From a virus: 20,855 bases of DNA. Of the stretch, positions 2,787-6,657 are shown one piece after another. A program made the position numbers and the translations under genes. The stretch's first letter is position 1. The number at the start of each line of letters is the position of its first letter. The stretch spans positions 1 through 20,855 of IMG/VR virus record IMGVR_UViG_3300006925_000202. One strand, 5' to 3'. The notes below the pieces were generated by a model. It saw nothing but the letters and a program-made list of their open reading frames with translations. It did not search any database and was not told where the DNA came from.

Positions 2787-3269
2787 ATGGGTTATATAGC
2801 AGTAAACGAAGAAGCAGAATTTGTTAAATTGCAAATAGTCGCAAATGGTAATGCCTACGCAAACGCTAATGTGGCGATGGCTGTCACAACCGACGTTATG
2901 GTGGTGCCTGCAATGCAGGAAATAACACTAAACATGACGCCAGGCACATTCCGTTGGAAACAACTGGATGAGTTAAGCGAACAAGTAGTAACTACCTCAA
3001 GCACAAACAGTCTTGAAGCAACGATTGTCTTAGATGACGAATCATTCTTCACAGGCAAAGGTGCAACGACTGGCATATTCAATGTCACAAATAACAAAAC
3101 TGAAGCATACTTTAGAATGTATTGGCAAGGCGACAGCACTGGCGATAGATATGTTGAAGGAACAGGATACTTAACAGGTGTAGCACCTACAGTATCACCA
3201 GACTCACCAGTTTGGACATCACCTTTAACAATTGAAATCTCAGGTGACTTAGTTCCTGGCGTAGTATAA
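2787..3269 (+). CDS. Major tail tube protein
   Basis: This 160-residue, beta-rich protein should polymerise into the hexameric tube of the tail. It has a strong ribosome binding site (TAGGAG, 7 nt before ATG). Visible features are an N-terminal strand 'AEFVKLQIVANG', a central motif 'ITLNMTPGTFRWKQLDELS', 'SLEATIVLDDESFFTG', and a late strand pattern 'EAYFRMYWQGDSTGDRYVEG' followed by 'PLTIEISGDLVPGVV'. The final block, a polar loop leading into a short strand with 'GDL', is common at the end of lambda gpV-like tube proteins. It sits between the terminator protein and the chaperone genes, as expected, and a hairpin terminator follows immediately, which fits a product needed in more copies than the genes after it. 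Confidence 0.75.
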   Translation: MGYIAVNEEAEFVKLQIVANGNAYANANVAMAVTTDVMVVPAMQEITLNMTPGTFRWKQLDELSEQVVTTSSTNSLEATIVLDDESFFTGKGATTGIFNVTNNKTEAYFRMYWQGDSTGDRYVEGTGYLTGVAPTVSPDSPVWTSPLTIEISGDLVPGVV

Positions 3270-3338: not shown

Positions 3339-3569
3339 ATGAAACATCATCCGAAACACAGACGCATTGTAGAACAATGCATCAAAGATGGAAAACAAGA
3401 AGTGATACTAAGTGGCCAATTACACAATGTCAACGACATAGCAGTGGAAATGGGCATAGAATCTCACAATGCAGATAAATATAGGAAAGAACATGCAGAT
3501 ATGGAAACAGAAGACCACAGCAGAGATATTGAAGACTCTGGAGATGGAATTAGCGAAAGCGAAGAATGA
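3339..3569 (+). CDS. Small protein, possible helix-turn-helix, acidic C-terminus
   Basis: This 76-residue product of unknown function is the first gene after the hairpin that follows the tail tube gene. The start is secured by a strong AAGGAG site 7 nt before the ATG. Residues 1-50 are basic and helical; 'NVNDIAVEMGIESHNADKY' resembles the two helices of a helix-turn-helix, although this is only a pattern impression. The last ~25 residues are extremely acidic (ending SGDGISESEE) and lie in the region where the next gene is read in another frame, so their composition may be constrained by that overlap. Its place just before the tail chaperones suggests a tail assembly or regulatory role. A frameshifted fusion with the next reading frame is possible. 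Confidence 0.55.
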   Translation: MKHHPKHRRIVEQCIKDGKQEVILSGQLHNVNDIAVEMGIESHNADKYRKEHADMETEDHSRDIEDSGDGISESEE

Positions 3570-3669
3570 ATTAAAGTGCCTCACACAAGATGCAGGCAAA
3601 GTAAGTAACAGAGTGAACTTTTTATTAACGGCAGTTCACGCACTACAAGATAAGGATTTGAAGATATGA
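3493..3669 (+). CDS. Small coiled-coil protein overlapping its upstream neighbour
   Basis: A 58-residue reading frame, +1 relative to the preceding gene, with ATG at 3493 and an AGGA element 6 nt upstream; an earlier in-frame ATG exists at 3469. Residues 'AEILKTLEMELAKAKNELKCL' carry heptad-spaced leucines, followed by 'VSNRVNFLLTAVHALQDKDLKI', so the product looks like a helical hairpin or coiled coil. It overlaps the previous gene by 77 nt. Its stop overlaps the chaperone start in an ATGA junction (3666-3669), which is good evidence that it is translated and coupled. The function is unknown. It could also be expressed as the C-terminal part of a fusion with the upstream frame, since that frame is open from 3460. 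Confidence 0.55.
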   Translation: MQIWKQKTTAEILKTLEMELAKAKNELKCLTQDAGKVSNRVNFLLTAVHALQDKDLKI

Positions 3670-3968
3670 AATTACAAGAATTAGCAGTTAAACCCGTTTT
3701 AATCACAGTCACAATCGATGACGAAGACATCATAGAACAATATGGAGAGCCACTCGAATTTTACGTGTGGGACAGACAACCATTGGAAAAATTTATGATG
3801 TTTGCAGGTAAAAAACTGGAAGCAGAAGATTTACCTATGATGCTGGACTTTTGTCGTGAGATGATTCTCGATGACAAAGGCAAGCCAGTGTTAACAAATG
3901 AAAAAGTTCTACCAACTCAGGTGATGACAAAGTGTGTCACTAAAGTTATGGAACAATTGGGAAAGTAA
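3666..3968 (+). CDS. Tail assembly chaperone, lambda gpG-like
   Basis: This 100-residue protein has the look of gpG-type chaperones: an N-terminal beta region ('PVLITVTIDDEDIIEQYGEP'), the segment 'LEFYVWDRQPLEKFMMFA' seen in this family, and a helical C-terminus with 'VMTKCVTKVMEQLGK'. In lambda, gpG coats the tape measure during tail tube polymerisation and is absent from the finished virion. It starts in an ATGA overlap with the previous gene. The last two sense codons (GGA AAG) lie in the slippery heptamer GGGAAAG, immediately before the TAA, so most ribosomes make this short form and a fraction continue into the -1 frame to make the long form. Confidence 0.78.
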   Translation: MKLQELAVKPVLITVTIDDEDIIEQYGEPLEFYVWDRQPLEKFMMFAGKKLEAEDLPMMLDFCREMILDDKGKPVLTNEKVLPTQVMTKCVTKVMEQLGK

Positions 3969-4228
3969 CAGGAAGTAGTTTCTCTCCCAACGATCCAGTG
4001 TTAAGCAGTGCTATAATGCTGGATCAAATGGCTAATCGATATGGTATGTTGCCCAGTCAAGTATTAGAGATAGCCACAACGCAAGATCTGTTTGTGTATG
4101 ATGCTTATATAACATATACCAATCATGAAGCAGAGAAACGTAATCGCAAAAATGGAGGCCCGCCAAAGGCCCAAAGTATTACTTCCGATAATTTACAAGA
4201 ACGTTTGGCTAAATTTAGAGAACAATAA
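3666..4228 (+). CDS. Tail assembly chaperone GT fusion made by -1 frameshift
   Basis: The expected join is 3666-3965 with 3965-4228, giving 187 residues: the 100 residues of the G-like protein plus an 87-residue T-like domain. The T part begins VTGSSFSPNDPV and contains 'MANRYGMLPSQVLEIATTQD' followed by 'LFVYDAYITYTNHEAEKRN', a pattern I recognise from the T domains of siphovirus tail chaperones. The T domain recruits tail tube subunits in lambda while the G part binds the tape measure. The T frame has no plausible independent start signal and stops one base before the ATG of the next gene. The ratio of short to long form normally matters for tail assembly; it cannot be read from the sequence. 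Confidence 0.8.
3959..3965 (+). promoter_or_regulatory. Programmed -1 ribosomal frameshift site GGGAAAG
   Basis: In the chaperone frame the heptamer reads G GGA AAG, directly before the TAA stop at 3966. It is the X XXY YYZ form and is the same heptamer that lambda uses in gene G/T. After a -1 slip, decoding resumes with GTA at 3965, and that frame is open to 4226. The downstream frame has no Shine-Dalgarno sequence near its only early start (GTG at 3998). Confidence 0.85.
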
Positions 4229-4513
4229 ATGAAAATGGATCGTAAACAATTTGACAAACTGATGACACAACTTGAAGATGTGCCACCAGCAGTGATGCGT
4301 GAAGCATTACCACGTATGCAAAAGTTTACACCAAGAGCATCAGGTAATGCTCGTAGTAAAACTCAGAAACGAGATGAAACAACCATAATAGCCGATTATG
4401 CTTATGCAGATAGATTGGACAATGGTTGGAGTAAACAAGCACCAAAAGGTTTTACAGATCCCACAATAGATTTCATAGAGCAACAAATCATGCGTGACAT
4501 TGGGAGGATGTAA
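4229..4513 (+). CDS. HK97 gp10-like tail component
   Basis: This 94-residue basic protein starts immediately after the chaperone stop (TAAATG), so it is probably translated by coupling. It contains 'FTPRASGNARSKTQ', a short strand 'TTIIADYAYADRLDNGWS', and 'KQAPKGFTDPTIDFIEQQ'. This order (P-x-x-S/T-G-N-A-R, then YA-x-x-L-x-x-G, then QAP-x-G, then P-T helix) resembles the HK97 gp10 family of neck or tail-completion proteins. In many siphophages that gene lies between connector and terminator; here it lies between the chaperones and the tape measure, which makes the exact role less certain. A second tail-completion factor is an alternative. Confidence 0.5.
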   Translation: MKMDRKQFDKLMTQLEDVPPAVMREALPRMQKFTPRASGNARSKTQKRDETTIIADYAYADRLDNGWSKQAPKGFTDPTIDFIEQQIMRDIGRM

Positions 4514-4515
4514 GT

Positions 4516-6657
4516 GTGGCTAAAAGTATAAAAATTGCATTAGAATTAGATACCAGTCAATTTGACAAAGGCATAAAAAGTGCCAAACGTGATTTAAGTG
4601 GTTTAAATTCTGAATTAGGCAATGGCAAAAGCAAAGGTGATGGTTATAAGGTCAGCATGATTGGAGTTGCTGGTGCCGTAGCCGCAGTAGGCACAGCCGC
4701 AATGGGACTGAAGAGTGCCCTGGATGCCGCTCAAAGTGTTGAGAACCTCAATGTAACATTGACCACATTGTATGGTGATGCAGGACTGGCCGCAGAGGCA
4801 ATGGCCACTGTTAAAGAACAAGCCGCAGGACTAACATTTGCACTCAGTGATATTCAAAGTGGTGTTCCTTCACTGGCATTGGTAGAAGAAAAGTTTGGTG
4901 GATTGGATAACGCAATTCAATTTACATCTGGTGTTGCAAGTGCATTTGGAATGACGTTCCAAGAAGCCGCAACCAACGTTCAGAGATCCATGACTGCTGG
5001 TATTGGTGCCGCAGACTTATTCAGAGACAAAGGTGTTAAAGCATTCCTCGGATTCCAAGAGGGTGTAAAATACACTGCTGATGAAACACAGGCCATGATG
5101 TTAGCATCATTTGAAAAAGTAACAGATGCAAACGAGGCTGCCGCTGACACACTAACAGGTCAGTTCTCTATGATGGAAGATGCCGCTTTCCAATTAAGTG
5201 AAGCAGTAGGCACAGCATTTGGTGCCACACTGAAAGCAGAATTATCAGAACTAAACACTGCATTCGCAGAAAACAAAGAACAAATTTTAGCAGTTGCAAG
5301 AACAATTGGTGAAACACTGGGTAGAGCATTAACACTGGCAGTGAACAATGCAGATATCTTGCTTGGTGTGATGAGTGGTATATTTGCCGCGGCCGCAGTA
5401 GGTCGTGTTGTTGCAGTTGTAACAGCAGTTATGAACTTCACAAAGGCAATGCAAGCCGCCGCAGTAGCAGGAACCATATTGCAAGGTGTTACTGGTGTAG
5501 GTTTACTCAAAGTAGGTGCTGGGTTAACAGCCGCGGCAGCCAGTATAGCAGTGATGAATGGCATGTTCGAAGAACAAGAAGAAGTTGTGAACGATGTTCT
5601 TATTGCAGATGACGACCTTGAATCCAGCAGAGCAGAAAATGATGCCGCAGAGAAGAAACGTGCAGAAGAACGTGATGCAAGACAACGTGCCGAAGAAGCA
5701 AGACTACAAGCAATAGCGGCCGCAGAAGTAGACAAAGCCGCTAAAGTAGAAGAAGCCGCACAAAAGAAAGCAGAAAAAGATGCAGAACGTGCCGCCAAGG
5801 AAGAAGAACGCAGAGCAGAGAAAGAACAACGTGCCGCGGAACGTCATCAGAAAGAATTGTTAAGAGCTCAAGAAGTAATGGAGCAGGCAAATAACAAATT
5901 TGAAGCAGATTTACGTGATATAAACAGCACAACAGAAAAAATAGGCTTAACAGAAACACAAATTCAGCAATTAGATGCCGTGAATGCATTAAACGCCGAA
6001 AGAGAAGTCAAATTAGCAGAGATTGCCAAGTATAATATATCAGATGCAGAAAAGAACCAGTTACAAGAAGAATTAAACGCACTGTATGACGCTCAAATAC
6101 CCAAGATCAGAGACGCAATAGAGGCTGTAGACACGCAACAACGTAAATTCAGCACAGGTTGGACCAAAGCATGGACACAATACAAAGATGATGCTGAAAA
6201 CAATGCCAAAACAGCAGAGCAAATGTTCACCGCTGTTACTGGCACAATGGAAAGTGCATTTGTAGACTTTGTTGCCACAGGTAAAGGCAGTTTTAAAGAT
6301 CTTGTTGATGACATGATTAACCAATTGAAACGTATCATTGCTAAAAAGATATTTGTTACCATACTTGAGTTTCTTGTGCCAGGATTGGGCAATATATTTT
6401 CTTTTCTTGATTCAGGTGGAACTATTGGCCCCGGCAAATTAGGTATTGTGGGTGAGAAAGGTCCAGAGATTGTGAGAGGACCAGCACAAATCATCGGCAG
6501 ACAACAAAGTGCAAGTATGTTAGGTGGTGGTGCAGGTGGCCAAGTCACATACAACATCAATGCAGTTGATGCCAGTTCATTCAAAACACTGGTTGCACAA
6601 GATCCTGAGTTCATATACAACGTTACTGTAGCAGGCAGTAGGAGAATACCACGATGA
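4516..6657 (+). CDS. Tape measure protein
   Basis: This 713-residue protein sets tail length. The start is GTG at 4516 with GGGAGG 8 nt upstream. In order it shows: N-terminal 'IKIALELDTSQFDKGIKSAK' (residues 5-24), typical of tape measures; a hydrophobic segment at about 47-63; a helical body; a long hydrophobic, alanine-rich region at about 280-350 that may act in membrane passage of DNA; a highly charged A/E/K/R coiled coil at about 370-460; and a C-terminal lambda-type block (about 568-665) with 'FVDFVATGKGSFKDLVDDM' and 'GIVGEKGPEIVRGPAQIIG'. The length is modest, implying a tail of about 100 nm if the usual ~0.15 nm per residue holds. It follows the chaperones and overlaps the next gene by ATGA (6654-6657). 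Confidence 0.93.
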   Translation: MAKSIKIALELDTSQFDKGIKSAKRDLSGLNSELGNGKSKGDGYKVSMIGVAGAVAAVGTAAMGLKSALDAAQSVENLNVTLTTLYGDAGLAAEAMATVKEQAAGLTFALSDIQSGVPSLALVEEKFGGLDNAIQFTSGVASAFGMTFQEAATNVQRSMTAGIGAADLFRDKGVKAFLGFQEGVKYTADETQAMMLASFEKVTDANEAAADTLTGQFSMMEDAAFQLSEAVGTAFGATLKAELSELNTAFAENKEQILAVARTIGETLGRALTLAVNNADILLGVMSGIFAAAAVGRVVAVVTAVMNFTKAMQAAAVAGTILQGVTGVGLLKVGAGLTAAAASIAVMNGMFEEQEEVVNDVLIADDDLESSRAENDAAEKKRAEERDARQRAEEARLQAIAAAEVDKAAKVEEAAQKKAEKDAERAAKEEERRAEKEQRAAERHQKELLRAQEVMEQANNKFEADLRDINSTTEKIGLTETQIQQLDAVNALNAEREVKLAEIAKYNISDAEKNQLQEELNALYDAQIPKIRDAIEAVDTQQRKFSTGWTKAWTQYKDDAENNAKTAEQMFTAVTGTMESAFVDFVATGKGSFKDLVDDMINQLKRIIAKKIFVTILEFLVPGLGNIFSFLDSGGTIGPGKLGIVGEKGPEIVRGPAQIIGRQQSASMLGGGAGGQVTYNINAVDASSFKTLVAQDPEFIYNVTVAGSRRIPR

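Follow-up and report, generated by a model that had tools for sequence, protein, structure and literature searches.

The DNA analysed here, called the window, is a stretch of 20,855 nucleotides (positions 1 to 20,855 of the IMG/VR virus record IMGVR_UViG_3300006925_000202, a metagenome-derived contig of a tailed virus that infects bacteria). It carries a putative pair of tail assembly chaperone frames, G and T, that sits between the putative major tail protein gene and the tape measure gene, with a Neck1-like gene intervening before the latter. The features of this region, all on the plus strand, are listed below with the evidence for each.

2787-3269 (+): putative major tail protein, from its position and from the 61 of 66 relatives that have a homologue 5' of the heptamer; no family match itself
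3666-3968 (+): G-like tail assembly chaperone ORF, 100 aa, the predicted main product; open reading frame, 67-member dereplicated family, AlphaFold2 model
3957-3969 (+): recoding motif YTG-GGA-AAG-TAA-C; chance expectation of 0.00 in shuffles, family-wide conservation
3959-3965 (+): putative slippery heptamer G_GGA_AAG (-1); sequence, phase, synonymous-site conservation
3966-3968 (+): G-frame stop TAA abutting the heptamer, with C at 3969 giving a weak +4 context
3965-4228 (+): T-like extension in the -1 frame, 87 aa, predicted only after a slip; open frame, conserved domain in all relatives
3992-4025 (+): predicted RNA hairpin, 26 nt beyond the heptamer, role uncertain; fold z-scores
4229-4513 (+): Neck1/tail-completion-like protein between T and the tape measure; phrog_169 at E 6.6e-6, and 60 of 66 relatives have it 3' of T
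4516-6657 (+): tail tape measure protein, 713 aa, lambda-type; Tape_meas_lam_C PF09718 at E 4e-17, phrog_339

Just 5' of G, the ORFs at 3339-3569 and 3469-3669 overlap in different frames. The second of these (orfB) has homologues at the same place in 28 of 66 relatives and the first in one, and ORF 3339-3569 may be lineage-specific or no gene.

A scan of both strands found GGGAAAG only once in the window, in the phase X_XXY_YYZ (G_GGA_AAG), and the 3' end of G reads TTG GGA AAG TAA, leaving zero codons between the heptamer and the stop. The -1 frame runs without a stop over 3944-4225 and closes at the stop 4226-4228, and translation across the slip predicts a product of 187 residues (100 + 87) with the junction ...QLGK-VTGSS.... 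The first-pass annotation of this DNA had claimed the heptamer at these positions, the G-frame end GGA AAG TAA and a -1 frame open to 4226, all of which are confirmed, and a 187-residue fusion, which is supported as a prediction. Trypsin cleaves QLGKVTGSS right at the G/T junction (K100), and another protease is therefore required to obtain a peptide that spans it. The bare heptamer is at chance level, with one copy in the window against 1.74 expected in shuffled sequence, and judged alone it carries little weight. The extended motif YTGGGAAAGTAAC has an expectation of 0.00 in the same kind of shuffles; the frame, position and conservation of the heptamer exceed chance, unlike its bare count.

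The early part of the T frame in the window offers only three start codons, GTG 3998, ATG 4016 and ATG 4028, with anti-Shine-Dalgarno energies of +0.3, -1.6 and -3.1 kcal/mol against -6.0 kcal/mol for the start of G. Upstream of the first conserved T helix, 61 of the 67 family members have no ATG, GTG or TTG and 66 have no ATG, while the Shine-Dalgarno sequences of the G starts are good across the family (median -5.6 kcal/mol). The weak energies in the window and the missing starts among its relatives bear out the earlier claim that T lacks a usable start or Shine-Dalgarno. Judged by these signals, T cannot initiate on its own.

The identity of the two proteins was approached through structure, profile and sequence searches. 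The AlphaFold2 model of G has a pLDDT of 90, and its two best matches among 350,542 PDB chains are the HK97 tail assembly chaperone 2ob9 (probability 0.89, TM 0.51), a moderate match at E 0.09; among viral models, G comes closest to a protein without a name and to a 'tail assembly chaperone', both from uncultured phages. T is predicted to be helical. Neither protein had a significant match in Pfam or the named PHROG chaperone families (Phage_TAC_13 appeared at E 0.11), and a PDB sequence-profile search returned nothing relevant. In profile alignments with hhalign, T did not match lambda T, P2 E' or pelagiphage T significantly, and G aligned with the G of pelagiphage HTVC111P at E 0.0037. A nucleotide search of INPHARED with the whole window gave no match, and tblastn searches of that collection with G, T, the capsid protein and the T of a relative gave none either, so that no isolate of this family was found. 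A profile search of genome contigs with the G alignment yielded no relative and no prophage clue to the host.

Relatives were collected by scanning viral contigs with an alignment of G, which gave 55 loci (including two near relatives) at identities down to 35%, and with a narrowed alignment of T, which gave 80 loci on contigs partly shared with the first scan. Merging at 90% protein identity left 67 family members including the window, with G identities of about 35-56%. The two near relatives, L006 (99.8% identical to the window) and L005 (93%), both keep the heptamer, the stop and the offset. The first-pass annotation had named conservation of the heptamer and of the -1 offset among relatives as a check, and all 67 dereplicated members have a phased slip site followed by the T domain in -1. 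The slip sites are GGGAAAG in 51 members, GGGAAAC in seven, GGGAAAA in six and GGGGAAG in two (L035 and L053, which use G_GGG_AAG); the remaining member, L055, has AAAAAAA at the stop next to GGGAAAT at the usual place. The site is thus canonical in 65 of 67. L073, which has too little of G on its contig and is absent from the T-based count, carries GGGAAAG|TGAC.

The stop abuts the slip site in 58 of the 67 members. Of the others, one has a single intervening codon, six have 8-12 codons and belong to one GGGAAAC clade (L049 and L058-L062), and two have 5 and 15 codons. Nearly all members with GGGAAAG or GGGAAAA have the stop directly 3', and the exceptions in which a C-ending heptamer abuts the stop are L114 and the pelagiphage HTVC026P.

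Codon choice at the slip site is strongly fixed within this family, in which synonymous sites should be near saturation at the observed divergence. Of the 67 members, 66 have TTG or CTG as the Leu codon before the heptamer, although these two make up 31% of the Leu codons on their contigs (binomial p 1e-32), and 64 have GGA as the Gly codon within it, a codon used at 20% (p 2e-40); these p-values count lineages as independent and ignore shared descent. Because the G protein fixes neither third base and the -1 frame is untranslated there, these bases bear only on re-pairing, and judged from them slippage appears to be under selection. A synonymous variant of the slip site would change TTGGGAAAG to TTAGGTAAA, or likewise to TTA GGT AAA. 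Comparison with L005 shows one difference, at a third position, in the 303 bases of the G ORF, and eight differences in the T frame distributed 1/1/6 over the codon positions, the pattern expected of a translated -1 frame. Compared with L005, from which the window differs by 7% overall, the G ORF changes far less than most of its neighbours, and recombination or unusual constraint could account for this.

We read this locus, with a probability of roughly 0.93, as a site at which ribosomes undergo programmed -1 frameshifting in a G/GT pair of tail assembly chaperones of the lambda type. The slip itself and its rate are what we infer; the phase, the frames, the conservation of site and offset and the missing T start are direct observations, and the model of G resembles a chaperone fold at the moderate level given above. 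The best-supported mechanism would be plain tandem slippage to -1 at a heptamer that shifts very easily, with the release factor competing with a late slip; in E. coli, G_GGA_AAG is known to shift very readily (PMC5009743). Most ribosomes would end at the TAA of G and release the 100-residue protein, and a minority would slip one base back on G_GGA_AAG, with tRNA-Gly re-pairing on GGG and tRNA-Lys on AAA, and go on at GTA ACA... to make the 187-residue G-T fusion. Since no codon separates heptamer and stop, in-frame reading of AAG would put UAA in the A site at once, and a late (E/P-site) slip would compete with the release factor; the weak +4C context, which is conserved, would ease that competition. 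If the proteins act as in lambda, the tape measure protein would be coated by G, and tail-tube subunits would be recruited by the rare fusion.

Other ways of arriving at the same arrangement fit these observations far less well. Termination-reinitiation is frequent in phage operons, and a GTG lies 30 nt past the stop in the window, so that T might arise as a protein of its own, either through re-initiation past the TAA or through a start at GTG 3998, with no fusion. The energy at that GTG and the absence of an ATG (66 of 67) or of any usual start (61 of 67) before the conserved T domain speak against such a separate product, which would also leave the conserved heptamer unexplained, and we consider it very improbable. 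Slippage of RNA polymerase instead of the ribosome as the source of the -1 product is slightly less probable again: the runs in GGGAAAG, of three bases only, are too short for efficient transcriptional slippage, and conservation of the slip site tracks codon phase, even though transcriptional slippage is known for some recoded bacterial genes (PMC5009743). An assembly or sequencing error that split one gene across two frames would be conceivable in a metagenome-derived contig, but is refuted by conservation of the offset, which recurs in the 99.8% identical contig, the 93% copy and more than 100 other loci.

Stimulatory elements of the usual kinds are not a consistent feature of this family. 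The hairpin at 3992-4025 has fold z-scores of -2.0 (80 nt) and -5.5 (60 nt), and no consistently placed downstream RNA stimulator was found across the family, in which the mean z is -1.2 and the signal patchy. Upstream Shine-Dalgarno stimulators are weak or variable among the members, and the window has no strong internal one. The hairpin, which is stable in prediction and lies inside T coding sequence, is too distant for a typical stimulator.

The layout in which the stop abuts the slip site is real and conserved, and it comes with a constrained following base. C follows an abutting TAA in 55 of 56 members; on the same contigs 30 of 196 TAA stops (15%) have it, the most frequent base there being T. 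In bacteria, +4C is a context of inefficient termination (PMC5289835). TGA-C serves as the abutting stop in one of 58. The part that this stop plays in frameshifting is inferred from the layout, and the direction of any effect differs among published systems. Earlier work cited in PMC4373837 is reported to have found that frameshifting at the HIV slip site in E. coli fell when a stop replaced the next codon and disappeared when extra RF2 was supplied. In PEMV, a plant virus, frameshifting is supported by a stop located 3 nt downstream (PMC4737148). Because these effects disagree, we do not endorse the direction proposed in the first-pass annotation, in which a pause at the stop might increase slippage: the computed data give no direction, and the HIV-site work points the opposite way. 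Its guess about stop pausing can instead be recast as a comparative fact, namely an abutting stop in 58 of 67 lineages and +4C in 55 of 56 TAA cases.

Two accounts of this layout deserve consideration, and they contest solely the proposed role of the stop, not the frameshift. The stop may be passive: G would end with the heptamer since a compact genome has no use for a C-terminal tail, and +4C would persist because it gives a Thr in the -1 frame; this is plausible, at somewhat less than even odds. TAA followed by C always encodes Thr in the -1 frame, which leaves nucleotide and protein selection not fully separable, the GGGAAAC clade evidently manages with 8-12 codons before the stop, and TGA-C, which would give Val-Thr and still weaker termination, is nevertheless almost unused. 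On the other hand, Thr follows the first -1 codon in 56 of 58 lineages with an abutting stop and in none of the nine others, within a linker where the third base of the Thr codon and the residues that follow vary freely, and abutting slip sites recur in other chaperone pairs of unrelated sequence. The stop and the +4C might alternatively be working parts of the signal in this family and, judging from the recurrence of the layout, in other phages, the slip site having been placed next to a stop that is weak by design. Slippage to -1 would then compete with the release factor, and the G:GT ratio would track host termination speed. This active role is a rather doubtful proposal; if true, tail assembly would respond to host termination speed, and the site would be the -1 equivalent of the UGA-C switch in prfB.

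Comparison with characterized phages places the site close to that of lambda. The lambda gpG/gpGT pair has the heptamer GGGAAAG in the same phase, the same position before the tape measure gene and T in the -1 frame (PMC5009743), in agreement with the heptamer identity noted in the first reading of this DNA. Lambda differs in that five codons separate its heptamer from TGA and its T part is 144 aa long, against zero codons and 87 aa in the window, and its T has no detectable sequence similarity to that of the window. The layout thus is a variation on the lambda arrangement, as had been suggested, although not one unique to this phage. The distance from heptamer to stop is 6 codons in P2 and 11 in KS9, and the mean slip-to-stop distance is 26 nt in the SEA-PHAGES set and 36 nt in the 2004 tail-gene set (PMC10885494). 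The HK97 chaperones (gp13 and its frameshift product), to which the best fold match of G belongs, share the position and an annotated -1 frameshift; the identity is 12%, and no canonical heptamer was found at the HK97 site.

Abutting stops are also found in other phages. The heptamer abuts the stop in the pelagiphages HTVC111P (AAAAAAG|TAA), HTVC112P (AAAAAAG|TAG) and HTVC026P (AAAAAAC|TAA), whose -1 frame of 56-60 aa reaches just short of the tape measure gene, with no T frame annotated, and whose G is 23% identical to that of the window. They differ from the window in an A-rich heptamer, +4A in place of +4C, and a shorter T. Escherichia phage vB_EcoS-95 (AAAAAAC|TAA), Xanthomonas phage CP1 (GGGAAAA|TAG) and Stenotrophomonas phage BUCT626 (GGGAAAC|TGA) have an abutting stop with the annotated next ORF in -1; their chaperone pairs are annotated as two genes, and the likeness to the window lies in the slip/stop layout. 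Beyond phages, RSV- and BYDV-like systems place a stop immediately or almost immediately after the -1 slip site (PMC4373837, PMC4737148), comparable with the abutting stop of the window and 58 of 67 members; those systems are eukaryotic RNA viruses with downstream structures, and the effect of the stop varies between them. Literature searches, which covered few subscription papers, turned up no description of stop-abutting slip sites in phage tail chaperones.

Slippage of this kind is already known; the variation seen here is a stop that abuts the slip site in a weak-termination context and is shared by dozens of uncultured relatives. The tail chaperones of an uncultured lineage, unnamed in sequence libraries, are thereby placed firmly in the lambda-type recoding scheme. 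Annotations of chaperone pairs as separate genes may overlook frameshift fusions in which the slip site lies against the stop.

Several further observations concern the compared genomes. The unannotated T frames of the pelagiphages lie at 4666-4852 in HTVC111P (L008), 4669-4851 in HTVC112P (L011) and 4678-4851 in HTVC026P (L012), and a minus-strand ORF is annotated over the T frame in two of the three. Their +4A was counted against a pure termination reason for the base after the stop. In BUCT626 (L156, 3100-3106), GGGAAAC before TGA links the first gene at the chaperone position to an annotated tail chaperonin in -1. The two chaperones of S. maltophilia phage Salva are reported not to be frameshift-linked (PMC7953286); the BUCT626 annotation names a Salva protein, and the Salva statement may merit re-examination. 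In Kolga EXVC016S (L007, 2576-2860), G ends GGG AAG AAG AAT TAG, with a T-like frame at -1 and a non-canonical G_GGG_AAG. The Neck1/HK97-gp10-like gene of the window (4229-4513) precedes the tape measure gene and not the major tail protein gene as is usual, and pelagiphage Kolga apparently has the same order (L007, 3344-3727).
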